A stretch of DNA of 40,655 bases from Bacteroidetes bacterium HGW-Bacteroidetes-17 (GTDB taxonomy: Bacteria; Bacteroidota; Bacteroidia; Bacteroidales; GCA-2711565): the NCBI GenBank assembly GCA_002840985.1, contig PHDM01000017.1, forward strand, positions 1-40,655. Reading direction: 5' to 3'. Numbering within the stretch: the first letter of the stretch is position 1; every line of letters begins with the position of its first letter. Shown in pieces: positions 4,662 to 40,138 of the stretch. A program made the position numbers and the translations under genes. A model generated the notes under the pieces. The model worked only from the letters and a program-made list of their open reading frames with translations. It was not told the DNA's origin and did not search any database.

Positions 4662-4703
4662 TATGTTGAATATTAAATTATTTTGATGTTACTTTAAATG
4701 ATT

Positions 4704-6176: not shown

Positions 6177-6177
6177 A

Positions 6178-7002: not shown

Positions 7003-7016
7003 AATGTGCGCCGTTG

Positions 7017-7688
7017 TTAAAATGCTTCTTCTATGATGTTTTTCTTATCTATGTTCAAATGAATCAATTGTTTTTCGATTGAATCCATCATTGGTGGAGG
7101 TCCGCAGATATAGATTTTTTTAACAGAGTTACTTATGTGAATTTTGATAAAATCTTCTGTGATCAGACCATGAGCATAATCATCTGCTTTTTCGTCAGAT
7201 AAAATATTGATGAAATTTTCCCCTAACATATTTTTAAATTCCTCTTCAAGTATTATATCATCTTTCGTTTTGTTGGCAAAAATGAGTTTATTGTTACCTG
7301 TTTCTTTCATTGATTGAAGGAACCTGAAGATGCAAATAAAAGGGGTAACCCCAGCGCCTCCTGCTATGAATATACCTTCTCCTTTATAGGTGATGGCACC
7401 AAAAACATCGTGCAAAATCAACTCATCATCTTTTTTTAGTTTCAAAAGTTGATTCGTTACACCTTTGTGGGGTGGATAAGTTTTGATGGTAAATTCGAGA
7501 AAGGCACTATCAGGAAGGCTTGTAAAAGTAAAAGGCCTTTTTTCGTTCTGCCAGCCATCTTTGTTTATTGATATTTCTGTAGCTTGCCCTGGAGTAAACC
7601 TGAAATGTGTCGGTTTTTCGGTTACAATCTGCAGTACATCATAAGTGAGGTGCTGAATTGATTTAACTTTTACTGTATATGGTTTCAT
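7017..7688 (-). CDS. FAD/NAD(P)-binding oxidoreductase (ferredoxin/flavodoxin reductase-like)
   Basis: 223 aa; FTPGQATEISI, KRPFTFTSLP, GIFIAGGAGVTPFICIFR, KKIYICGPPPMMDSIEKQL. Confidence 0.92.
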   Translation of the reverse strand: MKPYTVKVKSIQHLTYDVLQIVTEKPTHFRFTPGQATEISINKDGWQNEKRPFTFTSLPDSAFLEFTIKTYPPHKGVTNQLLKLKKDDELILHDVFGAITYKGEGIFIAGGAGVTPFICIFRFLQSMKETGNNKLIFANKTKDDIILEEEFKNMLGENFINILSDEKADDYAHGLITEDFIKIHISNSVKKIYICGPPPMMDSIEKQLIHLNIDKKNIIEEAF

Positions 7689-7700
7689 TGTATGAATAAA

Positions 7701-8036
7701 TTATTTTGTACCTGGTGTTTTCTTCGGCATCCTTTGCTTTATCTTCTTGATTTCCGTTTCGACTTCTTTTGCTCCTTTCGCATACAATTTTTCCTCATCC
7801 GGTGAAAGTTCGTAGACCAAACGCAAAAACTCGCCTGCATGTACACGCTCCTCATCGGCTATATTTTTAAGAATTTCTATAGCGAGTTTATTGTCGGTTG
7901 ACTCGGCAAGCTGCATGTACAATTGAGTTGCTTCATATTCTGAAACTACCATAAAACGTATTGCTCTGACAAGCTCCGCGTCTGTTAGCTTTCTGTCTTT
8001 TGCTAAACCCGAAAAAGCGGATCCAAATGTTGGCAT
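7701..8036 (-). CDS. Ferritin-like / rubrerythrin-family protein (resembles encapsulin-associated ferritin-like proteins)
   Basis: Preferred start at 8036 (MPTFGSAFSGLAKDRK...), with AAAGGAG about 7 nt upstream (8041-8050). The ORF track starts at 8078. The E-x6-Y...EExxH motif pair (SEYEATQLYMQLAE...ADEERVHAGEFLRLV) is seen. Confidence 0.88.
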   Translation of the reverse strand: MPTFGSAFSGLAKDRKLTDAELVRAIRFMVVSEYEATQLYMQLAESTDNKLAIEILKNIADEERVHAGEFLRLVYELSPDEEKLYAKGAKEVETEIKKIKQRMPKKTPGTK

Positions 8037-8526
8037 ATTAATTCTCCTTTCACTTTTATTCAGGCTTCCACCCATCAATACGATATTGTTTAAGACTGAT
8101 ATAATACTCTACCTCCCTAAGTTTGGAGAATGATTTATACTAAAACTTATTGAAAATGCAAATCATTTTTGATAAAGTTTCAGTTATGCCGAGAGGAACA
8201 GAAGCTTTAATGACGCAAAACTGTTCCGTCTTGGTATAATCATTTATTAGTTTTCAAAGATGAGCATAGTAATTACGGAAAGCGTTACATTTTTACAGAA
8301 TAAATTTACATCATTCACACATTATCATCACCCAAACTATTGGCTATTCTTCACTTTTTTTATTAGGCACTCAATAAAACTAAATATTCAAAAACAGGTT
8401 AAGCGCTACCTGAGCTTGCTTTTTAAAACCGCATTAATAGTTTTATACATTATGGATGGATGAAGACTTTTGCGTCATAAATTTGCATTGCATTTTTTTC
8501 TGCACGCTTTAATAGCTACACTAAAA

Positions 8527-9096: not shown

Positions 9097-9450
9097 TCAA
9101 TTATTCAATTTTAAAAAATCTCCGTCGATTATTAACAGCAAAGCACCTTCTTTGGTAACCGAACGATGCGAACTGAGTTCATCGCTAACCACATAGGTCA
9201 TTCCGGTTGTAAGAACCCTGCTGCTACCATCTTCAAACTCCGTGGTAACACCACCTCTCAGGCAATGAACAATATGGCCTTTTTGGCACCAATGATCGGC
9301 CATATAATTTTTTGAATATTCAACCATTCTAACCCTTAACCCGGCAAATTGAACCGTTTGCCAATATGCAACTCCGGTTTCGCCCTGATGTTCTGTTTTC
9401 GGAACTTTGCCCCATTCAATATTTTGAAAAGGAATATTTGCGTTATTCAT
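9097..9450 (-). CDS. DHCW-motif cupin fold protein
   Basis: 117 aa; EHQGETGVAYWQTVQFAGLRVRMVEYSKNYMADHWCQKGHIVHCLRGGVTTEFEDG matches the DHCW-motif small cupin family as I know it. Confidence 0.85.
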   Translation of the reverse strand: MNNANIPFQNIEWGKVPKTEHQGETGVAYWQTVQFAGLRVRMVEYSKNYMADHWCQKGHIVHCLRGGVTTEFEDGSSRVLTTGMTYVVSDELSSHRSVTKEGALLLIIDGDFLKLNN

Positions 9451-9462
9451 CTCAGTATAGCA

Positions 9463-10128
9463 TTATTTTAACTTATAAGTTTTATGATCAATTTTGTATT
9501 CATCGTCATTGATCCATTGCAGGATCGGGATGCCCGTCCAGGAACTGATTTGTTTTAATTCGCTCTTTTTAAACAGTCCATAGTAATTTTTTTCAAGATA
9601 AACCATCGTGTTTCCAACAGCAGAACCTGCAACTTCACGCTTGGTTACCAGCTTGTGGATTTCGTTTGGAGAAGCTGATTCGTCGATTATTTTCAGGTTG
9701 GTATTGCCCGAATATTTGATTGAGAAAAAAGAAAATACAATGGATATGATGTATAAAAAAATAATCAAAAATGAATACTGCCAGTTTTTCTTATTGAGCC
9801 ATAAAATCCGATCACTTGCGATCAGATAAATTATAATGATACATAAGCTCATGGTGGCTTTCATTAAGAAGGCATCCATAAACCCGAAAACAGGTAAAAA
9901 AGGAATGAATATAATCATTGCCTTGGCGGGAATGTCGATTTGCTGTGTATTTGCCTGAATAAAAAAGCTGATAAAAACAAGTGCCAGAAGCGTATAAAAT
10001 GCCCATAATAATATTCCGGAAACTATGGTAAACCCCATCGTTCTGAACAAAATCGACAGCAATATGAACAGAATGAGAATGATGCTGCTGTTTTCCCTGA
10101 ATTTTTTTAAGATTCTTTTTACCATCAT
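9463..10128 (-). CDS. Hypothetical multi-pass membrane protein
   Basis: 221 aa; several hydrophobic helices in the N-terminal ~135 aa and a soluble C-terminus; 12 bp upstream of the cupin gene on the same strand. Confidence 0.75.
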   Translation of the reverse strand: MMVKRILKKFRENSSIILILFILLSILFRTMGFTIVSGILLWAFYTLLALVFISFFIQANTQQIDIPAKAMIIFIPFLPVFGFMDAFLMKATMSLCIIIIYLIASDRILWLNKKNWQYSFLIIFLYIISIVFSFFSIKYSGNTNLKIIDESASPNEIHKLVTKREVAGSAVGNTMVYLEKNYYGLFKKSELKQISSWTGIPILQWINDDEYKIDHKTYKLK

Positions 10129-10243: not shown

Positions 10244-10951
10244 CTATACAAAACGCTCTCTTCTTTGTAAATTGGTTAGACTCCACAATATCGAAATAAT
10301 TGTGCCTACCAATAAAAAAATCCTGTTTTCACGAATTACATTTTGCCAAATGGTTTGGCTCATTTCCGAAGGGGCATTGTACGGATTCAGAAAGATGTTC
10401 CATTTACTGTATTGCAGCGGTTCGGCCAATATCAAAAAGGTAAGGCCAATGATCACCATGATTGCCGCGGTTGAATTTGCATTTTTAATTAAGGTGGAAA
10501 ACATAAATGCCAATCCAGATAAAAATAACAGGGGATACATCAGTTGATAAACAATTGGGATCACATTTACCCTGGCAACAGCAAAAACGGCAAACCAGCC
10601 CATCAGCATCAAAAACACGAACATCATGACCATGGTAATGGCAAAACGAACCAGATACACCTTATAGCGATAATTAGGTATCCCAAAAATGATTTCAAGC
10701 ATCCGTGCATCTTTATCGTTTTGTATGTTAAAAATTACCGGATAAAAAAGAATGAGTATGCCAGGGAAAATTAAAGTATCATAAATATCTTCAGTATTTA
10801 TCGCGTTATCATCAAAAAGCATGATCCCTATTACCATGAGGTAAAAGGCAATGGCAGCGATCAGGAAAAATATAAATTTGTTTGCAAAAATAATCTTCAG
10901 ATTGTAAGTAATGCTGCGCAATATGAGTTGATATCTATCTTGTGTTTTCAT
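10244..10951 (-). CDS. ABC-2 type transporter permease
   Basis: 235 aa, about six hydrophobic segments. Starts 9 bp after the stop of the RND-ABC fusion gene. Confidence 0.8.
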   Translation of the reverse strand: MKTQDRYQLILRSITYNLKIIFANKFIFFLIAAIAFYLMVIGIMLFDDNAINTEDIYDTLIFPGILILFYPVIFNIQNDKDARMLEIIFGIPNYRYKVYLVRFAITMVMMFVFLMLMGWFAVFAVARVNVIPIVYQLMYPLLFLSGLAFMFSTLIKNANSTAAIMVIIGLTFLILAEPLQYSKWNIFLNPYNAPSEMSQTIWQNVIRENRIFLLVGTIISILWSLTNLQRRERFV

Positions 10952-10960
10952 GCTCTCAGT

Positions 10961-13900
10961 TTAATTATTGGGTTCAACTTCGTCATCTTCCTTTTGCAAT
11001 AAGCATAAATAGGCATCTTCCAGATTGGCCTTCACAATGTTGGCATCAGGATGTGGTTTTTTATTCGACAAACAACGCATCCTGATTGTTTCTCCATCTC
11101 TCATGTGGTGAATAATGGTAAGTTTATCCTTAATCTCTTCAAATTCCTCATGAGGGATTTGCAAGTTCCAGATTTTGCCTTCTGCAATTTTTGCCATTTC
11201 AATCGGTTTCCCAAGATATTGCAGGTAACCTTTTTTCATCACGGCAACATAATTGCACGAACTTGCCACATCTTCGATAATATGAGTTGAAAAAATTACA
11301 ATCCGATCCTTGCTTAACTCAACTAACAGATTCCTGAATCGAATCCTTTCTCGAGGGTCCAATCCGGCGGTAGGTTCATCAACTACCAGTATTCTTGGCA
11401 GATGCAGCAGAATTTGGGCGATTCCTATACGTTGTTTCATCCCTCCTGAGAAAGAGCCGATTTTATCATTCCGGCTGTTCCACATATGTACCGCATTTAA
11501 TACGTATTCAACCCTTTTGTTCCGTTCCTCGGTATCGAATAATTTCTTTAACAAACCCATATAATGCAGAAAATCCCAGGCACTCATATTTTCGTACATG
11601 CCAAATTCCTGGGGCAGGTATCCAATGAGACTCTGCAATTCTTCCCGTTTTTCACGAACATCGATTCCATTGATGGTAATTTGACCGTAACTTTGATCTA
11701 AGATGCCACAAATAATTCGCATTAAAGTGGATTTACCTGCTCCATTTGGTCCCAATAAGCCAAACATTCCGTGTTCAATATTAAACGAAACTCCTTTAAC
11801 AGCCTTAAAAGGAATCTTCTTTTTCCCAATAACAGGGATGATTAATACAAATCGGCTAAAAGCCTTGCGAATTCCTTTGAATCTTCCACTGATGCGGTTA
11901 ATATTGATTTTCTTCTTATAAATATTGTCGGATGTGACTTTAATCAAAATGGCTAAATACCAAAGAAATCCATATGGAATTATTAATCCGATATTGCCAT
12001 ATTTTAGATACATCATGGCCAGTGCAATCATCGGGAAGAACCAACGGATCATTTTCAAGAAGGCTGCAATTAGTATTCTGACAAATTTTTTCTTTTGATT
12101 TTCCTTCAGATTATTTACAAACAGTTTCAATGGTCGTAGGATACCCATTAAAATGAGATATAATCCAACCGGCAACACAAAATACCAAAAACCGCTTTCG
12201 AGATGGAAATAGATGAAATAAACAGCAAAACCTATCAATGGCAATTGCCAGATTAATTTCTCAAGATCTTTAACTGAGTTAAATTCCAAGTCTAAACCCA
12301 ATCGTTTTCGCGTTTTTAATCCTGATTTCCATTCGAGAATAAATCGACTATCCCAGTCATAAATTTTTACAAGGTTTCTGATTTCGATTCGTAATGGGGT
12401 TTGTGGATCAATTAGAGTTTCATTGGCTCTTCTTAATGAGTTCTTGATAAAGTAAATACTTGCGGGAACTATGATCATCCATAAAATGAATTCTATAATT
12501 TGCCATATTTTACTGTCAACTTCTGCATAAATATAATAGGAGCCGATGAGCCACAATACCACGTGGATTGTTTTTATAAATCTGGATTGTGAACGAATCC
12601 ATTTTAAAGAAGTTTGTAAACCTGAATTGAGAGTTGGTATAAATACCAATGTGAGCAAAGTGCTTACTGCAAGTCCTCCAATAACCGTTATGGCAAAAGG
12701 TACCCCAATTTGAGTTACATATTCTGCCTTGCCAAGGGCCAAAGGTACTAATGCGATGATTGTTGTGATTGCAGTGATCAGGATCGGACGAATCCGTGCC
12801 AGGCCGGCCATCATTAGTGCCCTGGATTCATTATAACCTTGTTTTTGAAGAACTCGGGTATAGTCGATCATGATGATCCCATTGTTTACTACTATTCCTA
12901 ACAAAATCAGAAACCCGGTAAATACATTGGCATTCATAATAGACGTACCTGTGAGGATAAGCAAAATTAACGAACCAATAGCTGCCAACGGAATCGAAAA
13001 CATCATGACTAAAGGCACTGTAAAAGATTCGAATACAGAAGCCAGGATCATAAATATCAAGACGAAAGCCATGCTAAGCAAAAATCCGAATTCACCCAAA
13101 TCGTTTTCTTCGTGAATTACTTCGATCGCTATATCTGAAGGAAGGTTGATATTAGCCATGAGTTCGTCCACTTCTATTCTTGAATTGTTCAGTAGGTCAT
13201 TGTCATCATTGACTTCTGAAATGAATTCGTAATTAATGGTGAGCTGTTTTTCCTGATTTGTCCGGTTGATAGTTGATAAACCTTCGGTGAAATTGAATTT
13301 ACTGATATTTTGGATTTCAAATCGGGCATTTTGATTACTGCGAACGTTCAGATGTTTTAAATCGTAGATATTTCTTGCCTTTTGTTTTTCAGTCAGTTCA
13401 GTCGTAATTTGAATGTCATATTCTTCGCCGCCTTGTTTAAACAAGATTCCACTCGAAAACTCTTTAGGAAATGAATTTAATTCAGAAAGGACCGAGGTGA
13501 CCGGGATATCATAAAGCGACATCAACTGCTTGTCGAAAGTCAGCATGAGCTCAGGTCGTTTATCGGGGGTATTCAAATTTACACGCGACATTGAACTTAG
13601 TTGTTTTAAGTAGTATTCAATGTCTTTGGCAATGTCAAGCATCTTATCAAAATTCTGACCTTTGATCACGACTTTTTCCTGTTGAATCCCAATTCCCAGC
13701 ATCCTGGAAAAACCATCATCATTTTCAAATCCGCCTGTTCCAAATCGTTGTCCCGAAGCCGGTGGATCCCAGCTAAACTCAGCCTGGCGTAAATCTGTTA
13801 ATTTTTCGAGGATATTATTTTTAATCCGGGGAATTGAATAATTCCTGATTTTTCTGTAATCATCAACTAATGAAATCGTAACAATCGCCTCTTCCTCATA

Positions 13901-15688
13901 AACCTGACTGATAATATCTTTCTTCTCTTCTAAATCAGCCAATTTCTTTTCGACTTCCCTCACAAAAACATCGGTGTTTTCAAGGGTTGTTCCACTGGTC
14001 AGCGTAACATATAATTTCATCTCCTTAATTTCAGCCTCTTGCGATGAAATAACGCTAATGCCAAGACTTATAAGTAAAGTAAGAAAGAAAATGCCCAATG
14101 CACCCAGAATGGTTTTACCCGGATTTCGCATACAGGTTTTAAGTAAAACCCTATAAATTTGTATTAAGCGATTATCGTATGAAATACTTTCAAAATTTAT
14201 CGGTTTAATCGGATTTCTCTTCTTAAGAAATGCATGCGTGATCATTGGAACCAATAGTAAAGCTACTATTAGGGATACCAATAAAGTTGAAATAATCGAA
14301 ACACCAATGTGTTTTCCCAATAAACTGATAAAAAAGTTTGTTGAAAAAACAAAGGGTAAAAATACGGTGATTGTTGTCAGAGTTGCTGCAAATATAGAAC
14401 GCCAAACTTCTTTGGTTCCTTGAATTACAGCTATATCAGGACTGATTTTTTTAGCCGCCAATCGATAGATATTTTCCAAAACAACTACGCTGTTATCGAG
14501 CAACATACCTATAGCTAGTGCCATCCCCAAAAGGGTTAGCGTATTGATGGAAATATCAAATGCATAGAAAAAATTGAAAGCTGTATAAACCGAAATCGGA
14601 ATAGCCAAAGCTATGGCTGCCACCAACCGTAAATTTCTGAGGAAGATCCATAAAATGAAAATGGACAAGATACCGCCGACGACTGCCAGATTAATGATCA
14701 GGTCGATGTTTTTTTCCATGGTATCCGCAGAATTAAGTTGAACTACCAGTTCAACATCCTTTTCAGCTAAATCAGCATTTAATTGGTCAATCCGCTTGAT
14801 TACCTCATGCGATAACTCAATAATATTGGATTGCGCATCACGGGTCAATTGTATTGTAACAGATTCTTGTCCATTTACACGGCTGTATGAATCTTCTTCT
14901 TTAACACCATAATGAATCTCGGCGATATCCTTAAGTTTAACGGGACCGTTGGCTTTAACTACCAATTCATAGAGGTCCTCAATATTGTTGAATTCAGAAA
15001 CTACATTGACAAAATAAATTTGATTATGCTCGTTTACCTTGCCTGCGAAAGTCCGGGATAGTTGATTATTGTTTATGGCAGTTCTGATATCGGCAGGGGA
15101 GAGGCCATGACTTTTTAATACTTCTTCGTTTAGTTTTATTTCAATCGACTTTTCCCTGCCACCAAATACCTGAGCGTTAGCAACTCCATCGATGTTTTTC
15201 AGTGGATCCAAAATTTCCTTATCCACAATTTGCCTGACCCTGTCAACTCCTCCGCTGCCACGTACTTCAACCGACATAAACATATTGTTTATTTGCTCCA
15301 GATCAAATTTAAATACCTGAACAACAAATTCCGGCGGTAGGTTGCGTTTTACTTCATCAACTTTTTCTGCCAGTTTGAGATAGGCAAATTTGATATTGGA
15401 AGAGGGTAGATATGAAATCCGGATGCTGCCCTGACGCTGTCCTGCAGATGATTCGATTTTATCAACTCCTTCGAGGGTGCCAATGGCTCCTTCTAGAGGG
15501 ATAATAGCCTGACTTTCCATGTAACGGGGATCAACTTCGATACGGCTCCCAACCTGAACAAACAGGAAAGGCAGTTGTGCATTCGGAATCAGTTCTACCG
15601 CTAAGTGTTTGTACGAAAAATATCCTAACATACTCATGCTGGTAAACAGCATGGCAATTAAAACCTTTCTTTTGATTATGAAACTCAT
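10961..15688 (-). CDS. RND efflux permease fused to an ABC transporter ATPase domain
   Basis: One uninterrupted 1575-aa frame. Residues ~1-1020 are RND/HAE1-like (MSFIIKRKVLIAMLF..., LLGMALAIGMLLDNSVVVLENI, GIVVNNGIIMIDY, ARIRPILITAITTIIALVPLALG). Residues ~1313-1575 contain Walker A GPNGAGKST (11726-11752), signature FSGGMKQR, Walker B RILVVDEPTAGLD and the H-loop STH. Confidence 0.95.
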   Translation of the reverse strand: MSFIIKRKVLIAMLFTSMSMLGYFSYKHLAVELIPNAQLPFLFVQVGSRIEVDPRYMESQAIIPLEGAIGTLEGVDKIESSAGQRQGSIRISYLPSSNIKFAYLKLAEKVDEVKRNLPPEFVVQVFKFDLEQINNMFMSVEVRGSGGVDRVRQIVDKEILDPLKNIDGVANAQVFGGREKSIEIKLNEEVLKSHGLSPADIRTAINNNQLSRTFAGKVNEHNQIYFVNVVSEFNNIEDLYELVVKANGPVKLKDIAEIHYGVKEEDSYSRVNGQESVTIQLTRDAQSNIIELSHEVIKRIDQLNADLAEKDVELVVQLNSADTMEKNIDLIINLAVVGGILSIFILWIFLRNLRLVAAIALAIPISVYTAFNFFYAFDISINTLTLLGMALAIGMLLDNSVVVLENIYRLAAKKISPDIAVIQGTKEVWRSIFAATLTTITVFLPFVFSTNFFISLLGKHIGVSIISTLLVSLIVALLLVPMITHAFLKKRNPIKPINFESISYDNRLIQIYRVLLKTCMRNPGKTILGALGIFFLTLLISLGISVISSQEAEIKEMKLYVTLTSGTTLENTDVFVREVEKKLADLEEKKDIISQVYEEEAIVTISLVDDYRKIRNYSIPRIKNNILEKLTDLRQAEFSWDPPASGQRFGTGGFENDDGFSRMLGIGIQQEKVVIKGQNFDKMLDIAKDIEYYLKQLSSMSRVNLNTPDKRPELMLTFDKQLMSLYDIPVTSVLSELNSFPKEFSSGILFKQGGEEYDIQITTELTEKQKARNIYDLKHLNVRSNQNARFEIQNISKFNFTEGLSTINRTNQEKQLTINYEFISEVNDDNDLLNNSRIEVDELMANINLPSDIAIEVIHEENDLGEFGFLLSMAFVLIFMILASVFESFTVPLVMMFSIPLAAIGSLILLILTGTSIMNANVFTGFLILLGIVVNNGIIMIDYTRVLQKQGYNESRALMMAGLARIRPILITAITTIIALVPLALGKAEYVTQIGVPFAITVIGGLAVSTLLTLVFIPTLNSGLQTSLKWIRSQSRFIKTIHVVLWLIGSYYIYAEVDSKIWQIIEFILWMIIVPASIYFIKNSLRRANETLIDPQTPLRIEIRNLVKIYDWDSRFILEWKSGLKTRKRLGLDLEFNSVKDLEKLIWQLPLIGFAVYFIYFHLESGFWYFVLPVGLYLILMGILRPLKLFVNNLKENQKKKFVRILIAAFLKMIRWFFPMIALAMMYLKYGNIGLIIPYGFLWYLAILIKVTSDNIYKKKININRISGRFKGIRKAFSRFVLIIPVIGKKKIPFKAVKGVSFNIEHGMFGLLGPNGAGKSTLMRIICGILDQSYGQITINGIDVREKREELQSLIGYLPQEFGMYENMSAWDFLHYMGLLKKLFDTEERNKRVEYVLNAVHMWNSRNDKIGSFSGGMKQRIGIAQILLHLPRILVVDEPTAGLDPRERIRFRNLLVELSKDRIVIFSTHIIEDVASSCNYVAVMKKGYLQYLGKPIEMAKIAEGKIWNLQIPHEEFEEIKDKLTIIHHMRDGETIRMRCLSNKKPHPDANIVKANLEDAYLCLLQKEDDEVEPNN

Positions 15689-15712: not shown

Positions 15713-18700
15713 TTATTCAGATTTAATATCTTCAACTTTAGCGTTTCCGAAAATAAAATCCTTTATATTTTCAAAAATATAATACACACAAGGAATGACG
15801 ATCAGTGTGAGTGTGGTACTGCTTATCAATCCAGCAATAACAGCGATGGCCATGGGCGAACGTAACGATGCACTTTCCCCAATTCCAATGGTTAACGGCA
15901 ATAAAGCCAATATGGTCGTAATACTTGTCATGATAATGGGCCTGATTCGGTTTTCGCCTGCCCTGATAATCGATTCTCGTAATGAGAGGCCCCTTTCTTT
16001 ATTCTGATTGATCGCATCCACCAAAATGATGGAATCGTTTACGGCAATACCAGCCAACATGATGATCCCTATAAAAGCCATGATATTTAATGACAATCCT
16101 AGTATAAAGAATGCCCAAATTGCTCCAATTCCTGCTAAAGGAATGGTAAGTAAAATGGTAAAAGGATGAATTAATGATTCAAATTGTGAAGCCATAACCA
16201 TATAAACGAGGATAATTGACAATAAGAGTGCAAAACCCAAACTTGACATTGCATCCTGGCGCTTTTGTTCAACCCCGACAATCGTAGTTTGATAGCCATC
16301 GGGGATTACCAATGCATCAAGCTGACTTTTAACTTTTTCAACTACTTTATCGAAAGGCATTGATTGATCATAATCGGCTGTAATTTTCCCAATTCGATTC
16401 TGATTTCTGCGAAGCAATTGTTTAGGGGATGTTGTTCTCTTAATATTAGCGACTTCATACAATGGAACTTCCATATTCCCGCTTTTCAATTTGATTGAAT
16501 TGAATTCGAAAAGAGTGATATCCGGTAATTTAACCGTTATATCGCTCATTTCGCCCGATTTTTCGTATTTACCTGCATTTTTTCCCATCAAAATTTCATT
16601 CAATTGAGAAGCAATACCATCTGCAGTTAAATTAAATAAACCTGCTTTGTAGCGATCGATTACCACATCAATTTCCGGGGCACCTTTTTCAATAGAAGTT
16701 TTAATATTTATTAATTCAGGAATTTCGGATAAGTTGGTTTTTATACTTTCGGAAAGACTTTCTAAAATTTCCAGATCTCTTCCCTTAAGCTCAACCACAA
16801 GAGGTGCTTCATCGGTACCTAATGTCGATTGTAATGCGGTTTCATCACGCTGAACAGTTATTTCAGCATCGGGAATAGTGCCTACCAATTCTGTCATTGC
16901 AGCTATAATGCTTTCGGATTGTGGTACTGCTTCTTTTTTTAGCTTCACTTTAATCGTTGCACTATTCTCATTTTTGAATATCGATTTACTTGATGTAATG
17001 GTAGATGCAGGGCCTATTTGACTATAAATGGTTTCTGCATTATCACCCAATACTTCAGCGATCATTTGTTCAATGGCATCAATGGTCGAATTGGTTCTTT
17101 GCAATTCAGTTCCTTCAGTCAAAACGATGTCGAGATTGAATTCGCTGGTTTCTGTTTTTGGCAGATATTCACTTCCTACTAGCGGATAGATGTACACAGT
17201 GGCAAGAATTGCCAATGCTGCAAGAAGTACGACAATATATTTAATATTTAGAAGTTTATTAAGAAAATCACCATACCAACCAATTTTAAAAGATTTAATT
17301 TTTGTGATTGCTTTTTTCTTTCCATACGCAAAATTAAAAAGCATCGGAATTACCAGGATCGCAACAAACAAGGAGGCCAGTAATGAAAATGCAACCGTCC
17401 AGGCCTGATCTTTAAATAAGGCACCTGAAACACCTTGTAAGTATACAATTGGGAGGAACACCACAATGGTTGTAAGGGTCGAAGCCGTAATTGCACCACC
17501 TACTTCAGCAGTTCCTGTAATCGCAGCCTCTTTGACGCTCATGCCCTGTTCCATATTTCTGAAAATATTTTCGACAACCACAATGGCATTATCCACAAGC
17601 ATTCCGGCTCCCAGGGCCAGACCGCCTAAGGTCATAATATTTAGACTTAAACCGTTAAAATACATTAAATTAAAGGTTGCTATGATGGAGATAGGTATTG
17701 CAATACTGATGATAAGGGTAACCTTTAAACGACGCAGGAAAATGAAAAGGACGATGATGGCCATTAGAATTCCTATCAGTGCTGAATCTTCAACTTCATC
17801 AATAGCATTTTGTATAAAAGAACCTTGATTTTGAACAATGATAAATTCATAACCGGGTAAGGCTTTCTGAATAGATTCAAGGGCCTTGTTCAGATTTTTG
17901 ACAGCAGCAACTGTATTAAAACCGGTTTCTTTAAAAATCGAGAGACCAATACAGCGCTGTCCGTTAATGCGAACGATGTTAACAGGGTCTTTATTGATAA
18001 AACTGATGGTGGCAATATCTTTCAAAAAGACTGGTACTTTTTCCGATACACTCGTTGCTCCTTGCTGACCCTGATTATCTCCAACTTGTTTATAGGTGAT
18101 AACCATCTCATTCAAGTCGTCGATATTTTTGATTAAACCGGAGCCTTTGATAATGTATTTCTTTCCCATTTCTACAATGGTACCGCCCGATACATTCCGG
18201 TTCATATTTTGAATTTGCTGAACGATACTGTTTGCGGTTAACCCGAAAGCATCTAAGATATAGGGACTGGTTTCAATCAACACTTCTTTTTCTTCTGTTC
18301 CGGTCAATGTAACATCAGCGATTCCTTCGAGCCTTGTAAGTTCATTCCGGATATAGTTTTCACCAATCTTGCGCATTTCATCCATATCCGTAATTTCGGG
18401 ATGAAGCATGCCCACGATCATAACAGGAGAAGCATTGGGGTCGTGCTGGGTAATGGTAAATTCGTCTATATCTGAGTTCTGACTATAAGTTGTGAGTGCT
18501 TTTTGTAAATCTAAAAAAGCTTCGTCCATATCCATGCCCCAGGCGTATTCAACAGTTACCCGTGCAGATCCGACCATACAAACGGATGAGATTTGAGTAA
18601 CTCCTTTTTGACGGATGGACTGGGCCTCAATGTTTTCTATGTATTGTTTTTCAATTTCTTCAGGAGGACGTTCACCTGCTTTAATTTCCACAAATATCCG

Positions 18701-18832
18701 GGGGGCATTCATGTCGGGGAATAAATCCAGACTTAGTTTTCCGAATGAAATGTATCCAAGCAGCAGAATTGCAATTACAATCATTGAAACTGTAACAGGA
18801 TACTGAACTGAAAAACGCGTAATTTTTTTCAT
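15713..18832 (-). CDS. RND efflux permease (HAE1-like)
   Basis: 1039 aa; LALGAGMLVDNAIVVVENIFRNM, LAGIAVNDSIILVDAINQ, NRIRPIIMTSITTILALLPLTIG. Confidence 0.97.
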   Translation of the reverse strand: MKKITRFSVQYPVTVSMIVIAILLLGYISFGKLSLDLFPDMNAPRIFVEIKAGERPPEEIEKQYIENIEAQSIRQKGVTQISSVCMVGSARVTVEYAWGMDMDEAFLDLQKALTTYSQNSDIDEFTITQHDPNASPVMIVGMLHPEITDMDEMRKIGENYIRNELTRLEGIADVTLTGTEEKEVLIETSPYILDAFGLTANSIVQQIQNMNRNVSGGTIVEMGKKYIIKGSGLIKNIDDLNEMVITYKQVGDNQGQQGATSVSEKVPVFLKDIATISFINKDPVNIVRINGQRCIGLSIFKETGFNTVAAVKNLNKALESIQKALPGYEFIIVQNQGSFIQNAIDEVEDSALIGILMAIIVLFIFLRRLKVTLIISIAIPISIIATFNLMYFNGLSLNIMTLGGLALGAGMLVDNAIVVVENIFRNMEQGMSVKEAAITGTAEVGGAITASTLTTIVVFLPIVYLQGVSGALFKDQAWTVAFSLLASLFVAILVIPMLFNFAYGKKKAITKIKSFKIGWYGDFLNKLLNIKYIVVLLAALAILATVYIYPLVGSEYLPKTETSEFNLDIVLTEGTELQRTNSTIDAIEQMIAEVLGDNAETIYSQIGPASTITSSKSIFKNENSATIKVKLKKEAVPQSESIIAAMTELVGTIPDAEITVQRDETALQSTLGTDEAPLVVELKGRDLEILESLSESIKTNLSEIPELINIKTSIEKGAPEIDVVIDRYKAGLFNLTADGIASQLNEILMGKNAGKYEKSGEMSDITVKLPDITLFEFNSIKLKSGNMEVPLYEVANIKRTTSPKQLLRRNQNRIGKITADYDQSMPFDKVVEKVKSQLDALVIPDGYQTTIVGVEQKRQDAMSSLGFALLLSIILVYMVMASQFESLIHPFTILLTIPLAGIGAIWAFFILGLSLNIMAFIGIIMLAGIAVNDSIILVDAINQNKERGLSLRESIIRAGENRIRPIIMTSITTILALLPLTIGIGESASLRSPMAIAVIAGLISSTTLTLIVIPCVYYIFENIKDFIFGNAKVEDIKSE

Positions 18833-18890: not shown

Positions 18891-19970
18891 CTATTTAACC
18901 ACTTTAACTTTTGAACTATTTCTCAATGTTTCATAACCTTTAATAACGAGTCGTTCATTAAGGTTTAGACCTGAAATGACTTGAACTTCGTTTGGGTTCT
19001 CCAATCCGAATACCAGTATACGTTCTTTTGCTAATCCTTTATCGATCACATAAACCGTATTTCCTTTTTGTTTGGATAAAATCACTTCTTTAGGTATAAC
19101 AATTGTGTTATCAACCGACGCAACAACAATTTCACCTTTGGCAAACATACCGGGTCTTAATTTAAGGTCCGGATTGTCGATGGTTAAAACCGCTTTAAAT
19201 GAGCGTGTATCAGCATTAATAGCAGGGGAGACCTGTGTGATTTTCCCTGTCAATGTATCATCAGGAATGGTATAGTTCATAATTCGGACCGCCTGCTCTT
19301 TCTTTACATCATTAATGTCTTTTTCGGCCAAATTAATCTCCATAATTAATTTACGATAATCCATAATTTTAGCCAATGGAGCTCCGGCGGCAATTGGTGT
19401 TTTAGGCGTTTGATAGGGCAATTCAACGATAATACCCGATATAGGTGTAAGAACAGCCATCTTTCTCAATTTAATGACTGCATCTTCAACTGCATATTTT
19501 GCATTCATATAATTGATTTCAGCGTTTTTCATGTCGCTCATGGTAACGCCACCTTTATCATAAAGGCTTTTTTGTTTATCATAAGTTTGCTTGGTTGTTT
19601 CAAGTTGCAATTCAAGCGAATTATTTTTAATGCCATTTTTGTATTCCGGATTTTCGATCATCACAATAACATCACCGGTGCTCACATAATCACCTAAAGC
19701 ATAGGGTTTGTTGGTTTTTGGGTTTGTCATCAATTCATACAAACCACTTATCTCGGATGGCAATACAACTTCTTTGACCGGTTTTACGGTACCGGTGGTA
19801 CTGATATATCTCTCAATGGATGATGCTTTTATTTCCATAACCGAAACCGGGACCGAAATATCTTTGTTCAGCTCAGTGCTGTTATCATTGCAGGATGCTA
19901 AAATAATCCCTAAAAGAATGATGAGTAATGCTCGTTTCATAATACTTATTGTTTGTATGGTTAATTTCAC
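18891..19970 (-). CDS. RND periplasmic adaptor (HlyD/MFP family), probable lipoprotein
   Basis: 359 aa. Likely true start is the internal Met at 19940 (MKRALLIILLGIILASC, a lipobox). Barrel-sandwich and coiled-coil features; VRIMNYTIPDDTLTGKITQVSPAINADTRSFKAVLTIDNPDLKLRPGMFAKGEIV. Confidence 0.95.
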   Translation of the reverse strand: MKLTIQTISIMKRALLIILLGIILASCNDNSTELNKDISVPVSVMEIKASSIERYISTTGTVKPVKEVVLPSEISGLYELMTNPKTNKPYALGDYVSTGDVIVMIENPEYKNGIKNNSLELQLETTKQTYDKQKSLYDKGGVTMSDMKNAEINYMNAKYAVEDAVIKLRKMAVLTPISGIIVELPYQTPKTPIAAGAPLAKIMDYRKLIMEINLAEKDINDVKKEQAVRIMNYTIPDDTLTGKITQVSPAINADTRSFKAVLTIDNPDLKLRPGMFAKGEIVVASVDNTIVIPKEVILSKQKGNTVYVIDKGLAKERILVFGLENPNEVQVISGLNLNERLVIKGYETLRNSSKVKVVK

Positions 19971-21475
19971 TATTTGTTAATGTTTTTTTGTAATTCCTGA
20001 GGGACAAAAGATGTGTTTTTTTCAAAATCCCAAAGTGATTGAATTTTCATGTTCAGTAGCTCTAATTTATAATTGATCAGAGAATTTGACATTTCCATCT
20101 TTTTGGATGAAAGTTGGGTTTGATACCGTTGAAGATCCATGCTTGTGAGGTCCCCATTTTTATATCGTTCCAGATTGATCTCATAAGTTAGCTGCGCATT
20201 TCTGTCGTTTTGTTCGGCAATCCCTATTTGTAAAACTAAATTGTTAAGATTCCGATATACCTGACGGATGTTAATAATAATATCATCTTCGAGTGTTTTT
20301 TTATCAATTTTAAGGGTTTCAATTTCAATTTCAGCAGCACGGATCCTTGCTTTACGTTCGCCCCAATCAAAAATTGGAATCGAAAAAGTTACGCCAACTT
20401 GTGGGCTTTTGGTGGGTCGTGAATAAATATCCTGAAATTTCTCATTATTACCAATGATCCCAACCGATAAGCGCATATCGCCCCTAAATTCGTTGGTTGC
20501 CGATGTTTCGATTAAATTAAACTGGGCGTTATCCAGATTTATTTGTCGCTGTGATAACTCCAATCGTTGAGAAAGGCCATTCGAAATTGCTTTTTCAAGA
20601 TCAATGCTTACAGGTGCATATTTAATATCCGTAATAACTTCAACTTCTTCGTATAACGACATCCCGATCAGTTGTTTGAATTGATCCTTGGCATTTTCCA
20701 GATTAACCAGACTATTATCCAAACTTGATTTACTGGTAGCCAAATTTAACTCAGCCTGATATAATTCTTCCTTTGCCGATAAATCCCCTTCAACTTTACT
20801 CTCAATAATTTCTTTGCTTACTTTTTGATTCTCATACTCTTCTTTGGCAATTTCATAGGCCATTTGCTTCTGATAAATTGAATAAAAAGCCTGATTAACC
20901 AATCTTTCCAGATTTAACATCTCTATTGCATACGCCAAAGTGGCATTCTCAAGGTTTAATTGATTTTTTTCCAGATTCATTTTGGTGCGGTTGTAGGTAA
21001 ACAACGGCTGGATGTATTGCAAATACAGGTTATTATTATAACCTTTATAATTGTTGTTGCTTGCTTGCGCATAGTTGTCCTGATACCCAAAATCGTTTTT
21101 CAAAACCAAAGTACCATCTGAAAATTTAATGGGCTGGGCAATGGTTAAACTACCGCTTGCACCTTTATTCTCGGAGGTGTACCATTCGGAAAAGTAATCG
21201 TTGTAAGTGTCGGTCTTTGAGTAAGAAAAAGGAGTCACTTCAAAAGAAAATCTGGATTTCAAAGAGGCCAGTTGGGCATTTAAATACTCCTTATTTTGCT
21301 CCATATTTAACCTTGCTTTTGAAATATCGGGGCTATTTTGCAAAGCAATTTCCATCGCATCTTCCAAAGTAAGTTTGGTTTGAGCCGAGGCAAGATTAAC
21401 CGTGAAAAGTATCACGGATGCCATCATTGTAATTTTCAAATATTTCATCTTTCTAAACAATTTATAATATTTCAA
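19970..21475 (-). CDS. TolC-family outer membrane efflux protein
   Basis: 501 aa; signal peptide, LTLEDAMEIALQNSPDISKARL, GVTFSIPIFDWGERKARIRAAEIEIE. Confidence 0.95.
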   Translation of the reverse strand: MKYYKLFRKMKYLKITMMASVILFTVNLASAQTKLTLEDAMEIALQNSPDISKARLNMEQNKEYLNAQLASLKSRFSFEVTPFSYSKTDTYNDYFSEWYTSENKGASGSLTIAQPIKFSDGTLVLKNDFGYQDNYAQASNNNYKGYNNNLYLQYIQPLFTYNRTKMNLEKNQLNLENATLAYAIEMLNLERLVNQAFYSIYQKQMAYEIAKEEYENQKVSKEIIESKVEGDLSAKEELYQAELNLATSKSSLDNSLVNLENAKDQFKQLIGMSLYEEVEVITDIKYAPVSIDLEKAISNGLSQRLELSQRQINLDNAQFNLIETSATNEFRGDMRLSVGIIGNNEKFQDIYSRPTKSPQVGVTFSIPIFDWGERKARIRAAEIEIETLKIDKKTLEDDIIINIRQVYRNLNNLVLQIGIAEQNDRNAQLTYEINLERYKNGDLTSMDLQRYQTQLSSKKMEMSNSLINYKLELLNMKIQSLWDFEKNTSFVPQELQKNINK

Positions 21476-21487
21476 ATTTGTTGTGCT

Positions 21488-24400
21488 TTAATCATTTTTT
21501 ACCCATTTTATTGCATCAGCAAAAATCATTTGCCCTACTGATTTATTCAGCAATTCGACCTTGGCTGATTCGGGATTTATGTAAAATGACCCTAAGTAAT
21601 TCCATCCATTTTCAAGTTCTTCATCCGTCAGGTTAATTTGTTCAACTCCGGCTTCGTGATAAATCTTGAAATTATAGTCGGATTTACGGTTGCGATTCCT
21701 TCGCTGAATATTAATCTTTTCGATATGACAATACACATCGTAATAAGCACCTTCAGTTAAATTTGCATGCCAAACGGCAGTTCGTTCTTCTCCGGCGGAG
21801 CTGGTGTACATAGCAGATCTGACATATTTACCATAAAATCCGGATCGCAATACAGGTTTCCACTCAGTAGGAGGGTTCCAGTATCTTATCCCGACGTATT
21901 TATATGTTTCCACTTTGTTTTTATCAACGAGTGTTTTTAAATAACTTCTATTGGAGGTTTGGATAAACTCAAAGCCGGCATCCTCATTATCGACAATTAT
22001 TTCATCTGGTTCCTGCAAGCTGGTGAACATTTCGCATGATCGGATATTATCGAAAGAGGCAATTTTTTTTATTTCTTCGAATGAATCAAAGTCATAAATA
22101 ATATTGTTTGGGAGGTTTTCTGAAATATGGGTGTAGATATTCATCCGGTTTGGTTCTGTTGAGAATACAAATCCAACTTCTCGTGCCGTATGTGCCGGAA
22201 TATGTATTTCTCTTGAGAAATCGACGGTCACCTGATTATTATCCTGACTTATTTCCTGATTATTTAAATCTATATTTACGGTGACTAAACCATCAATGTC
22301 TTCAGGATTTGAAATTTTAAACTTGAGCTGATATTTCGTAAACTCTCCTTCCAGCACCTTATAAGTCTGAACATCTTTAATCAAAAAGCCCGGGAGTAGC
22401 CTTTTTGAATACCAATCCCTTATTTCAGTAGAAATCGAATCGTTGAATTCTTTTTGAACAGCATTATTAAAGGTTTCAAAGGAGAAGGACTGATGCTGAT
22501 TTTGAGCCATCAGGTTATTCAGGAACCGGTTAAAAGCATCTTTGCCGTATCGGGCTTGGAAAAGTGAAAATAGATAATCTCCTTTTGCAAGTATTACATC
22601 ATTTAACGTCATTAAATCATCGTTTTCTTCACTTTCAGTTTGTTTTGAAATACCTTTACTCATTAATTCTTCCAGGGAATTTTTCTTCAACTCAAGGTTA
22701 ACACGTTCACCTTTACTGATTCCTTCAAAAAACCATCTGTTTGACGAAATGGCATTCTCATTTCGGTCCTTTAAATAAATACCCAGGGCCAAATCAAGCA
22801 TCGGCCAATCTTTTGATCGTAATTGAGTGATGAATGAATAATAATTTGGGAAAATAGAGAATGTGTTTCTATCAACCACTTCATCAAATTGATACCATTC
22901 GCTTGAATTAGCCATGAAATTACCTCTCACAAATCGTTTAAAAATTCTGGTCTGCAATTCTTCAGGTGAGATTTCTTCATTGTCACGTTTCATTTGTCGT
23001 TCCGACTGATTTCTTCTCTTTTTAAAATCAGTTTCTTCCATGGTCACACCTTTTTCCGAATAGAAGACCATCTCGGGTTGTACCGCATCGCTTGTCATTG
23101 AATATGAATGTCTGTCCAAGGCAAATTGAACCGGAACTTCTGCTAAAGAGAATCGTTCGAACGGATAATCTAAACCTATATGATTTTCGTATTCATTTTT
23201 TAAGCTTCTGATAATGGCCGGAAGACTATCAGAAATATTCGTGAAGTGTGAAATATAGTATTCATTTCCTTTAATTGTGAACAAATTGTAATTAATTGAA
23301 TCAACCCGAACAGAATATTTGGTGTAATTTCCTATCAGCAAGCTGATTTTAGGGAGGGGAAATTCAGGTTCAAAATGATAAGTCGATTCATTCAAATCTG
23401 TCATTTTACCTTGAGAGATGGGTAATAAGCCATTTTTTGTTTTAACGGTTAAATGAAACTGTGTTATATCGGGATAATACAAAGAAGGATCGAGCGAGGA
23501 ATATCCAACCCCTGAAACAGGATACCACAACGATTCGCTAGTCAAACATACAAAATCATCTTTTAAATACGCATATCGTTTACGAATTCTAAAGATCTCC
23601 AGCGAAAAATTATCCGTATAATTTTCCAGATCAGTATCCAAAAAATGGGTGTTCTCATTGATGTTTCCTTCATATTCGAGCGTCAAGCTGTAATTATTCC
23701 CGATTGCAATATTTTGTGCAGGAAGGATTTTTATGAGATGTAAATCTCTATTATAAGTAACATCTTTACCGTCGATATTTACAGAAATTATCGAAAGGGA
23801 GGGGTTTAGGCTAAAAATGAGTGTGTCAATAAATTGATTTGAATTATTAGTGAATTGCATCTCAACTTTTGCCTTGATGCTTTCTCCAAGGTGTTGAACA
23901 TCTATTTTAGAATCTGTAATACTTACTTTTGGATAATGAACATATTGGTTGTTCAGACTGATCATTTGTTCTTTAAGATCAACGTTTGATTCCTTTATTT
24001 GAATGTATTGTCTGGCCAACAAACCACCGATTAATATAAATATTATGGCTAATATTAGTGGGAAAGATGTAAGCTTTTTTGCCTGAGGCAATCGTTGCAA
24101 TTTGAAAATCGTGAAGAATACCATTCCCAAACCAATAAAAAAGTACATTCCTCGATGGATGAGCACTTCCTGAATATTTCCGAAACCGGCAATGCTTGAA
24201 TTAAACATCGGAACCTGGTAGGCGATATAATCAAAAATATGATAATATTTTGTGTTAAGATAAAATATGGTAAGCGCAATATAGCCAAGAATTACGATAA
24301 AAGTGATTGCTTGATTCTTGAAAATGGTCATGATAAAAAATGCAAGTCCAAGAATAAATACAAGTGTTGGCAGGCTTATTAATAAAGGATAATAAAAGAA

Positions 24401-24835
24401 TTCACTAATGCCTTTTGCCGAATCGTTACTGATAAACGAAAATCCTATTCCCATGAACAGGATAATAAGATTTAAAACGAGAAAAACGGAGAGTATTCCA
24501 ATTGTCTTCCCGAGAATATACTCAGCATTAGTCATCGAACGTACATAAATTACTTCGATGGTATCGTTTTTACGATCCTGTTTTAAAAATTCGGAAGCAA
24601 GGAATACAGCAACAATAGCCTGACCTAAATTTAAAATGAGCAGATTGACGTAAGGCATTGAAGCGGGTAGGGCTCTGTAAATCCATGGAGAACCACTTGC
24701 TGCTAAAAAAACAGCTAAATTAAAACCACCTAAACTGAGTATGGTTAATCCTGCGAAAATTCTGAAAAACCACCCGCGCAATAAGGTGCGCATTTCGTAA
24801 CGGGCAATGGTTTTTAGGGCGTGGATCGAAAACAT
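21488..24835 (-). CDS. ABC permease fused to a degenerate M1-like peptidase domain and a golvesin-like C-terminal domain
   Basis: 1115 aa. The N-terminal ~270 aa are multi-TM (ABC-2 permease). The middle region has the M1-associated pattern FERFSLAEVPVQFALDRHSYSMTSDAVQPEMVFYSEKG but no HEXXH anywhere. The C-terminus (RTAVWHANLTEGAYYDVYCHI...NGWNYLGSFYINPESAKVELLNKSVGQMIFADAIKWV) has the golvesin C-terminal pattern. Confidence 0.88.
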   Translation of the reverse strand: MFSIHALKTIARYEMRTLLRGWFFRIFAGLTILSLGGFNLAVFLAASGSPWIYRALPASMPYVNLLILNLGQAIVAVFLASEFLKQDRKNDTIEVIYVRSMTNAEYILGKTIGILSVFLVLNLIILFMGIGFSFISNDSAKGISEFFYYPLLISLPTLVFILGLAFFIMTIFKNQAITFIVILGYIALTIFYLNTKYYHIFDYIAYQVPMFNSSIAGFGNIQEVLIHRGMYFFIGLGMVFFTIFKLQRLPQAKKLTSFPLILAIIFILIGGLLARQYIQIKESNVDLKEQMISLNNQYVHYPKVSITDSKIDVQHLGESIKAKVEMQFTNNSNQFIDTLIFSLNPSLSIISVNIDGKDVTYNRDLHLIKILPAQNIAIGNNYSLTLEYEGNINENTHFLDTDLENYTDNFSLEIFRIRKRYAYLKDDFVCLTSESLWYPVSGVGYSSLDPSLYYPDITQFHLTVKTKNGLLPISQGKMTDLNESTYHFEPEFPLPKISLLIGNYTKYSVRVDSINYNLFTIKGNEYYISHFTNISDSLPAIIRSLKNEYENHIGLDYPFERFSLAEVPVQFALDRHSYSMTSDAVQPEMVFYSEKGVTMEETDFKKRRNQSERQMKRDNEEISPEELQTRIFKRFVRGNFMANSSEWYQFDEVVDRNTFSIFPNYYSFITQLRSKDWPMLDLALGIYLKDRNENAISSNRWFFEGISKGERVNLELKKNSLEELMSKGISKQTESEENDDLMTLNDVILAKGDYLFSLFQARYGKDAFNRFLNNLMAQNQHQSFSFETFNNAVQKEFNDSISTEIRDWYSKRLLPGFLIKDVQTYKVLEGEFTKYQLKFKISNPEDIDGLVTVNIDLNNQEISQDNNQVTVDFSREIHIPAHTAREVGFVFSTEPNRMNIYTHISENLPNNIIYDFDSFEEIKKIASFDNIRSCEMFTSLQEPDEIIVDNEDAGFEFIQTSNRSYLKTLVDKNKVETYKYVGIRYWNPPTEWKPVLRSGFYGKYVRSAMYTSSAGEERTAVWHANLTEGAYYDVYCHIEKINIQRRNRNRKSDYNFKIYHEAGVEQINLTDEELENGWNYLGSFYINPESAKVELLNKSVGQMIFADAIKWVKND

Positions 24836-24853: not shown

Positions 24854-25735
24854 TTAATGGTTAGATAAATATTCCATGAAATAAACATAGGCATGCTCCA
24901 GATTTGGTTCTATCTCGATTGCCTGCTTTGCTTCAATATCCTTTCCAACTAGTTGCACTTCCCAGCCTTCATCAGAAGGGATGGTTGAAATTACCGCATA
25001 TTTATTCTTTAATATATCATATTCGGTACCGGAAGTATTTACCTGCCAAACATGACCTTTGGCCATCTTAATTAGTTCTTCGGGTGAACCATTAAATTGC
25101 ATCCGTCCATCGTCCAGCAAAGCTAAATTCTGACAAACACTCGAAATGTCCCCAACAATATGAGTAGATAGAATAATAATGACATCTTGCTGACTTAATT
25201 CAGATAGGATATTTCTGAAACGAATCCGTTCTTCAGGATCAAGACCGGTTGTTGGCTCATCAACTACAATGATTTTGGGGCTACCGATAAGCGCCTGGGC
25301 GATGCCCAGTCTTCGTTTCATCCCTCCCGAAAGATTATTGGCCTGACGTTCGCGCGAATCAAATAAGCCAACTTTTTCAAGCCATTCATCAACTTTTGTT
25401 AATCTTTCTTTTTTGTTTTTTATCCCTGAAAGTGCCGCAGCATAATCCAAAAATTCCCAGGTTTTTAGTTTTGTGAAAAATCTGAAATCCTGTGGTAAAT
25501 ATCCCAACATTTTTCGAATTTCCTTTCGGTTTTTTGTCAAATCGTAACCGTTGACATTTACTGTACCTGAGCTGGCTTTCATAATGGTAACCAAAATTCG
25601 CATCAGGCTTGATTTACCTGCACCATTGGGGCCAAGCAGCCCAAACATGCCATTCTCAATTTCAAGATTGATATCGGATAAAGCTGTTTTTCCGTTACCA
25701 TAGATTTTGCTTAATCCCTGGATGCTGATCTTCAT
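24854..25735 (-). CDS. ABC transporter ATP-binding protein
   Basis: 293 aa; GPNGAGKSS, LSGGMKRR, KIIVVDEPTTGLD, STH. Confidence 0.97.
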   Translation of the reverse strand: MKISIQGLSKIYGNGKTALSDINLEIENGMFGLLGPNGAGKSSLMRILVTIMKASSGTVNVNGYDLTKNRKEIRKMLGYLPQDFRFFTKLKTWEFLDYAAALSGIKNKKERLTKVDEWLEKVGLFDSRERQANNLSGGMKRRLGIAQALIGSPKIIVVDEPTTGLDPEERIRFRNILSELSQQDVIIILSTHIVGDISSVCQNLALLDDGRMQFNGSPEELIKMAKGHVWQVNTSGTEYDILKNKYAVISTIPSDEGWEVQLVGKDIEAKQAIEIEPNLEHAYVYFMEYLSNH

Positions 25736-25935: not shown

Positions 25936-25967
25936 CAAATGTATACTTTGGTTTTTAACTTTCCAAA
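25936..25967 (-). promoter_or_regulatory. Bacteroidota-type promoter (-33 TTTG, 20 nt, -7 TACATTTG)
   Basis: On the minus strand: TTTG (25964-25967), 20-nt spacer, TACATTTG (25936-25943), matching TAnnTTTG exactly. Confidence 0.5.
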
Positions 25968-39688: not shown

Positions 39689-40138
39689 ATGAGAAAAATA
39701 ATAATTGTATTCAGTATGCTTCTTTTTTCCTCAGTGATCTTAAATGCACAAGAGCAAAAAGATGAAAACCCAAATGCAGCTCAAATTAAATTTGAGACCT
39801 TAATTCACGATTATGGCAAAATTTTAAAAGATAGCGATGGTAAATTCAAATTTGTCTTTACCAATACAGGTAAAGAACCTTTAATTTTATCACAACCTCG
39901 TTCTTCCTGTGGCTGCACCGTTCCAACCTGGCCAAAAAAGCCAATACTTCCAGGGAAATCAGATGAAATTGAGGTAACTTATGCTACCAATCGGGTAGGA
40001 CCCTTTGCCAAAACCGTTACAATTATGTCGAATGCCAAAACTCCTGTTGTAGTTTTAAAAATACAAGGTGAAGTGGTTGATAAACTTGTAGATGGTACAC
40101 CATCAAAAAATAGTGGATCAGCACCCACCAATAAATAA
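39689..40138 (+). CDS. DUF1573 domain secreted protein
   Basis: 149 aa; signal peptide; FVFTNTGKEPLILSQPRSSCGCTVPTWPKKPILPGKSDEIEVTYATNRVGPFAKTVTIMSN. Confidence 0.95.
   Translation: MRKIIIVFSMLLFSSVILNAQEQKDENPNAAQIKFETLIHDYGKILKDSDGKFKFVFTNTGKEPLILSQPRSSCGCTVPTWPKKPILPGKSDEIEVTYATNRVGPFAKTVTIMSNAKTPVVVLKIQGEVVDKLVDGTPSKNSGSAPTNK

Follow-up and report, generated by a model that had tools for sequence, protein, structure and literature searches.

We analysed positions 1-40,655 of contig PHDM01000017.1 from Bacteroidetes bacterium HGW-Bacteroidetes-17 (assembly GCA_002840985.1), the whole of which is referred to below as the window. Its minus strand carries seven closely spaced genes, the sixth of which encodes a resistance-nodulation-division (RND) permease and the nucleotide-binding domain (NBD) of an ATP-binding cassette (ABC) transporter in a single polypeptide. 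RND pumps and ABC exporters are conventionally taught as two distinct classes, each with its own source of energy. Domains of the window proteins were called with Pfam, structures were predicted with AlphaFold2 and folds were compared with Foldseek. Relatives were collected by a scan of GTDB species genomes, which yielded 192 confirmed cases, and the best 80 loci were analysed. The distribution of the fusion was assessed in 393 sampled genomes of the order by a profile search with the junction segment (E ≤ 1e-12), and a sample of 395 genomes from the phylum was searched for the fusion and for the last gene of the set, gene 7. Residue conservation of the fusion was scored over 84 full-length homologues.

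The fusion gene (gene 6; 10961..15688, minus strand) begins with an ATG at 15688, ends with a stop codon at 10961 and comprises 1575 codons in one open frame. An earlier reading of this DNA, made from its letters alone (the sequence-only reading), had given these coordinates exactly; the strand is minus. The uninterrupted 1575-aa frame it described, a full RND permease followed by an ABC NBD, was borne out by Pfam: ACR_tran covers residues 2-1020 (E 7e-156, profile positions 3-1016 of 1021), and ABC_tran covers residues 1298-1441 in the same frame (E 5e-30). The RND domain as delimited by Pfam and alignment (residues 1-1020; 12629..15688), full-length by homology to RND permeases with their 12 transmembrane helices and two periplasmic domains, has MdtB as its closest PDB match. 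Beyond its transmembrane (TM) helix 12 the AlphaFold2 model contains two extra helices at residues ~1036-1089 (12422..12583), the second with TM-like hydropathy. The first strand and A-loop of the NBD follow at residues 1098-1111 (12356..12397), within TPLRIEIRNLVKIYD; they were placed by alignment and by a strand in the model. Next comes a membrane insert of four TM helices (residues 1112-1282; 11843..12355), recognised from TM prediction, the model and Lys/Arg-rich cytoplasmic loops. The NBD core (residues 1283-1575; 10964..11842), assigned from Pfam, family matches and alignment, runs from Walker A to the H-loop and ends in a C-terminal extension of the ABC-2 type. All of these segments lie on the minus strand, and the family matches of the fused NBD are GldA, DrrA, ABCA3 and NosF.

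The fused ATPase is thus not merely appended to the pump; the NBD is itself interrupted by the membrane insert, TM helices of which the sequence-only reading made no mention. Strand 1 and the A-loop (IRNLVKIYD) precede the insert and the core comes after it. The pattern I-x-I-x-N-L-V-K-I-Y-D at residues 1101-1111 is common to the homologues and represents strand 1 plus A-loop; its counterpart in the free NBD encoded by the same operon is MKISIQGLSKIYG. After the insert the domain resumes with (P)FKALKGVSF...GMFGLLGPNGAGKS. When the 12 residues of strand 1 were joined directly to the core, most NBD hidden Markov model scores rose by 1-9 bits, and several NBD models then matched from profile positions 1-5. 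In the AlphaFold2 model of residues 515-1575 (mean predicted local distance difference test score, pLDDT, 73), residues 1101-1108 form a strand, and further NBD strands follow from 1297 on. The insert measured 110-209 aa (median 182) in 82 sequences and usually held four TM helices; it was shortened in one relative (L046). Lys and Arg were abundant in its cytoplasmic loops (means of 7.3, 4.2 and 9.1) but not in its periplasmic ones (0.4 and 1.2), the distribution predicted for a strand 1 and an NBD core that share the cytoplasmic side.

The source assembly is a draft metagenome-assembled genome (MAG) of 182 contigs, 87% complete, and a fusion in such a genome might reflect a frameshift, a lost stop codon or an assembly join. 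The sequence-only reading had itself named a frameshift or join, or two separate genes in related genomes, as grounds for discarding the fusion, and had suggested a domain search over Bacteroidota; when relatives were surveyed the fusion stayed intact. The frame was found without internal stop in 51 of the 393 order genomes, and the fusion was present in 6 of the 395 genomes of the phylum sample. Outside the order it occurred, again free of internal stops, in four genomes; two belong to the class of the source genome and the other two to a different class of the phylum. The junction segment (residues 1020-1290) was present in 19 of 149 relatives, the source genome included, with linker identities of 31-91% in the relatives. 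Full-length fusions spanned ~1544-1592 aa across the 80 loci, which include Bacteroides faecis, B. bouchesdurhonensis, Parabacteroides gordonii, Marinifilum, Labilibaculum and Prolixibacteraceae; the isolates among these named loci carry the intact frame. Contig ends aside, the sole frame break among the 80 loci was in a MAG (L123) at residue ~121, within the RND part and away from the junction. None of the loci or genomes that we inspected encoded the two parts as separate genes. Compared with the nearest relative, a member of the same genus with 96% identity, the ratio of nonsynonymous to synonymous substitution rates (dN/dS) was 0.04 for the RND part, 0.08 for the linker and 0.02 for the NBD, far under 1 across the junction. 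On these comparative data an artefact was rejected, and the chance that one underlies the fusion is practically negligible. No copy of the fusion was found on plasmids. Two kinds of candidate were discarded during the searches. Weak matches in the phylum and class (E ~1e-4, model positions 271-295) corresponded to the approach to Walker A in ordinary NBDs, and a 1432-aa frame with an NBD match in G491 proved to be an ordinary NBD gene whose open frame happened to continue upstream, the DNA there being GC-rich.

The operon reads, on the minus strand, free NBD, gene 2, TolC-like channel, membrane fusion protein (MFP), RND permease, RND-ABC fusion and 235-aa permease, neighbouring genes being separated by ~60 bp at most or overlapping by 1 bp. 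Gene 1 (24854..25735) encodes a free ABC-2-type NBD of 293 aa (ABC_tran, E 3e-31), which stands at the operon head in relatives and has intact motifs in 8/8 aligned sequences. Gene 2 (21488..24835) encodes 1115 aa, comprising an ABC-2 half-permease, a dead M1-like domain and a Golvesin_C domain. Gene 3 (19970..21475) specifies a TolC-like outer-membrane channel of 501 aa (OEP, E 7e-39), gene 4 (18891..19970) the MFP, a periplasmic adaptor of 359 aa (HlyD_D23, E 5e-22), and gene 5 (15713..18832) an unfused RND permease of 1039 aa (ACR_tran, E 2e-209). Gene 7 (10244..10951) follows the fusion. The seven genes kept an identical order wherever contigs were long enough, both in relatives within the order and in the four genomes outside it. 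Gene 7 lay behind the fusion in 77/80 loci, the remaining three being at contig ends, and in the phylum sample gene 7 and the fusion had identical distributions, both being present in one set of 6 of the 395 genomes. As the neighbours 3' of the operon were not conserved, the unit ends at gene 7.

The 235-aa product of gene 7, whose open reading frame (ORF) starts 9 bp past the fusion stop, had been proposed to be an ABC-2 permease. Its predicted fold upheld this and Pfam did so weakly (ABC2_membrane_3 at E 6e-5, which misses the curated threshold). The AlphaFold2 model (pLDDT 86) has six TM helices, and Foldseek matched it to ABCG25 and PmtD (probability 1.00), NosY (0.95) and ABCA transporters, with TM-scores of 0.40-0.64 on the query and E-values of 0.01-0.4. 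As modelled, gene 7 fits a type V half-permease. Homologues of gene 2 matched ABC2_membrane_2 in 7/10 cases, Peptidase_M1 in 7/10 and Golvesin_C in 10/10. Gene 2 has one ABC-2 domain with 6-7 TM helices at residues ~1-290 (5-7 predicted across the homologues), and its M1-like domain lacks HExxH in 10/10 and so is catalytically dead; it is placed in the periplasm. One locus (L144:1422-9117) encodes a stand-alone NBD and a 1224-aa ABC-2/M1 protein with 12 TM helices, that is two ABC-2 domains, and an intact HEVAH motif. This pair is likely the ancestral form of operon genes 1-2. The stand-alone ABC2-M1 protein used for comparison is the neighbour of the ordinary NBD gene in G491.

Because gene 2 retains half of the membrane part seen in L144, it would need a second half-permease, and gene 7 can supply one. 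The sequence-only reading had the fused NBD serving the 235-aa permease. This stands insofar as the fused NBD is intact and the permease nearly always follows it, but the ABC side is probably larger: since the operon head supplies another intact NBD and another half-permease, a heterodimer is more likely than the fused NBD acting with gene 7 alone. The same genes could instead form two homodimeric ABC exporters, fused NBD with gene 7 and free NBD with gene 2, docked on one pump. Each NBD does adjoin one permease gene and both are catalytically complete, but the gene-2-type protein, where it stands alone, has two ABC-2 domains, so that the single-domain version in the operon looks like half of a heterodimer; we hold the homodimeric arrangement to be highly improbable.

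The NBD of the fusion contains Walker A (GPNGAGKS), Q-loop (YLPQEFG), signature (SFSGGMKQR), Walker B (ILVVDEP) and H-loop (STH) motifs. The Walker A Lys, Q-loop Gln, SGG of the signature, Walker B Asp-Glu and H-loop His were invariant in 84/84 fusions, and the Walker A, signature, Walker B and H-loop motifs that had been called intact at first reading were thus invariant or nearly so in the homologues. The A-loop Tyr1110 was likewise present in 84/84, though the insert separates it from the core. For the RND part we used AcrB residue numbers, placed by way of the MdtB alignment. Asp398 of TM4 (AcrB Asp407) and Arg967 of TM11 (AcrB Arg971) were kept in 84/84 fusions, but the fused RND lacks the full AcrB relay of Asp407, Asp408 and Lys940. 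The Asp408 position was Asn in 81/84 and otherwise Thr or Cys, and the Lys940 position was Asn (Asn935) in 84/84. In the unfused RND of gene 5, TM4 Asp was present in 81/81, the Asp408 position was Asn in 81/81 and the Lys940 position was Asn in 77/81. Since the unfused RND shows the same Asn changes, partial loss of the AcrB relay belongs to both RND genes and was not caused by the fusion.

The altered relay bears on a second alternative, in which the fused NBD would act on the RND protein itself, energising or gating it in place of the lost relay residues, with gene 7 as an accessory. The covalent link and the Asn residues at the Asp408 and Lys940 equivalents would suit such a role. The unfused sister RND, however, has the same changes but no NBD. 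The catalytic TM4 Asp and the TM11 Arg have also been retained, and gene 7, whose ABC-2 fold is normal, occurs at every locus where the contig extends far enough. We therefore regard direct action of the NBD on the RND protein as quite improbable.

In 11 loci the fused RND and the unfused RND of the operon gave trees that branch in the same order, and their clades were sisters (96/95). The fused NBDs formed one clade (100/99) and the free NBDs another (99/99), the two being weakly sister (85/60); the nearest relatives of both were the NBDs of the stand-alone ABC2-M1 type (97/96). Together with the co-occurrence of the genes, the RND and NBD trees fit one fusion event in an ancestral operon followed by inheritance as a block. 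The fusion has a single origin, sits in a strict seven-gene order, and co-occurs and is co-inherited with the rest of the set.

We propose that the seven proteins form a hybrid exporter in which a heterodimeric type V ABC exporter is tethered by the fusion to a tandem-RND tripartite pump, a reading to which, judging from sequence, we assign a probability of roughly 0.58. An ATP-driven type V (ABC-2) exporter would consist of two halves, the free NBD with gene 2 and the fused NBD with gene 7, genes 2 and 7 being its membrane heterodimer. Through the fused NBD this exporter would be joined to the RND pump, which the products of genes 5 and 6 would build as a heteromer, as in MdtBC, and the single MFP and single TolC would serve as exit duct for both parts. 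The ABC part would most likely move a substrate (perhaps a lipid or peptide) out of the cytoplasm or the inner leaflet; the dead M1/Golvesin domain of gene 2 would capture it in the periplasm and pass it to the pump, and the RND-MFP-TolC pump would carry it across the outer membrane. ATP and ion gradient may drive successive steps. We infer the NBD-permease pairing, the RND heterotrimer, the substrate hand-over and the use of both ATP and an ion gradient, the last of which the sequence-only reading had suggested as dual energisation. Support for the hybrid exporter comes from the ABC motifs and the TM4 Asp, both conserved in 84/84, and the presence of only one MFP and one TolC in the operon supports their shared use.

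Several observations weigh against this proposal. Asn at the equivalents of AcrB Asp408 and Lys940 means that proton coupling is not assured, and the intactness of both NBDs makes two homodimeric ABC exporters possible. Profile comparison of gene 7 with the ABC-2 domains of gene 2 and of L144 gave no decision, and the model of residues 515-1575 has a predicted TM-score (pTM) of 0.41, so that it can be read for local structure only and not for domain arrangement. The two parts might also be merely co-localised, as two complete exporters of related substrates whose fusion fixes stoichiometry or assembly without coupling or hand-over. Every domain looks independently functional, and both operon and tether are conserved, as this would have it; one MFP and one TolC for both parts sit poorly with it, and the strict conservation of the tether, together with the presence of a membrane insert within the NBD itself, suggests that the connection is not simply a flexible one. 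On balance we consider mere co-localisation unlikely, while granting it a real minority chance. That the hybrid exporter would represent a new transporter class, covalently joined at a split ABC ATPase and handling one substrate with ATP for the inner-membrane step and an ion gradient for the outer-membrane step, we put forward tentatively, at somewhat short of even odds.

Upstream of gene 1 by ~200 bp there is a promoter-like match to the Bacteroidota -33/-7 pattern (25936..25967, minus strand), a weak one given that ~3 per window are expected by chance; a scan for sigma-70 promoters and terminators performed no better than on shuffled sequences. Among the flanking genes, none that might hint at a substrate was common to most loci. 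Directly 3' of the operon (9097-10128, minus strand), ORFs of 221 aa (multi-TM) and 117 aa had no Pfam match; they are kept in one relative of the same genus and lie outside the seven-gene set. In Bacteroides (L122, L118, L119, L120, L115) a gene for a patatin-like/outer-membrane protein lies 3' of the operon, followed by a separate RND-MFP(-TolC) set, and this second set could confuse phenotype mapping. At one contig end (L047:11660-12345) a transposase gene of the REP-associated (repetitive extragenic palindrome) type, with short repeats, lies between the fusion and the expected gene 7.

Elsewhere in the window, an oxidative-stress-like cluster (3810-8078, minus strand) comprises a catalase-like gene (4704-6176, read from the sequence), a rubrerythrin-like gene (7701-8078), an NAD/FAD oxidoreductase gene (7017-7688) and two alpha/beta hydrolase genes. 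A predicted secreted protein of 2991 aa (28320-37295, plus strand) has immunoglobulin-like repeats of the HYDIN/ASH/DUF1573 type, SprB-repeat matches and a Por_Secre_tail domain for type IX secretion sorting, and a DUF1573 protein is encoded nearby (39689-40138, plus strand). The 602-aa protein encoded at 37311-39119 (minus strand) joins DAK2, FakA-middle and DegV, that is both fatty-acid kinase partners, and is unrelated to the RND-ABC fusion.

Our search of open-access full-text literature returned no description of an RND-ABC fusion, of a membrane insert in its ATPase or of the seven-gene set. The fusion may have been noticed earlier as a domain architecture, such proteins having long been in public genomes. 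Each part comes from a known family, and the combination is apparently undescribed. Routine annotation with single-family models would not reveal that a membrane domain splits the ABC ATPase. The occurrence of the fusion in gut Bacteroides and Parabacteroides and in environmental Bacteroidales offers a way to ask whether two energy sources couple in one machine, and how a substrate passes from an inner-membrane exporter to an outer-membrane duct.

Several known systems share parts of this organisation. MdtABC-TolC, a two-RND pump of the hydrophobe/amphiphile efflux (HAE) type, likewise has a tandem RND pair, one MFP and one outer-membrane factor, but none of its components has an ATPase, whereas here one RND protein bears a split NBD and the operon adds two ABC-2 half-permeases. 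MacAB-TolC resembles the set in combining an ATP-driven inner-membrane transporter with an MFP and TolC. MacB, however, is a mechanotransmission protein with four TM helices and an N-terminal NBD on its own permease; in the present operon the ABC-2 permeases have six TM helices, the NBD is C-terminal to an RND protein and the set includes an RND pump. The ABC-2 permease/M1 aminopeptidase fusions of Transporter Classification (TC) family 3.A.1.145 combine 12-13 TM helices with an M1 peptidase of the zinc type; the published fusion has 13 TM helices (PMC3924187). The L144 protein, with its 12 TM helices and HEVAH motif, matches this published type. Gene 2 has the same order of an ABC-2 membrane part followed by a periplasmic M1-like domain, and the NBDs cluster together, but gene 2 differs in having half the TM helices, no HExxH and an additional Golvesin_C domain. 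Type V (ABC-2/ABCG/ABCA) exporters such as NosDFY, PmtCD and GldAFG share the NBD family and the permease fold; the operon described here differs from them in that one NBD is covalently joined to an RND pump and has TM helices inserted into it.

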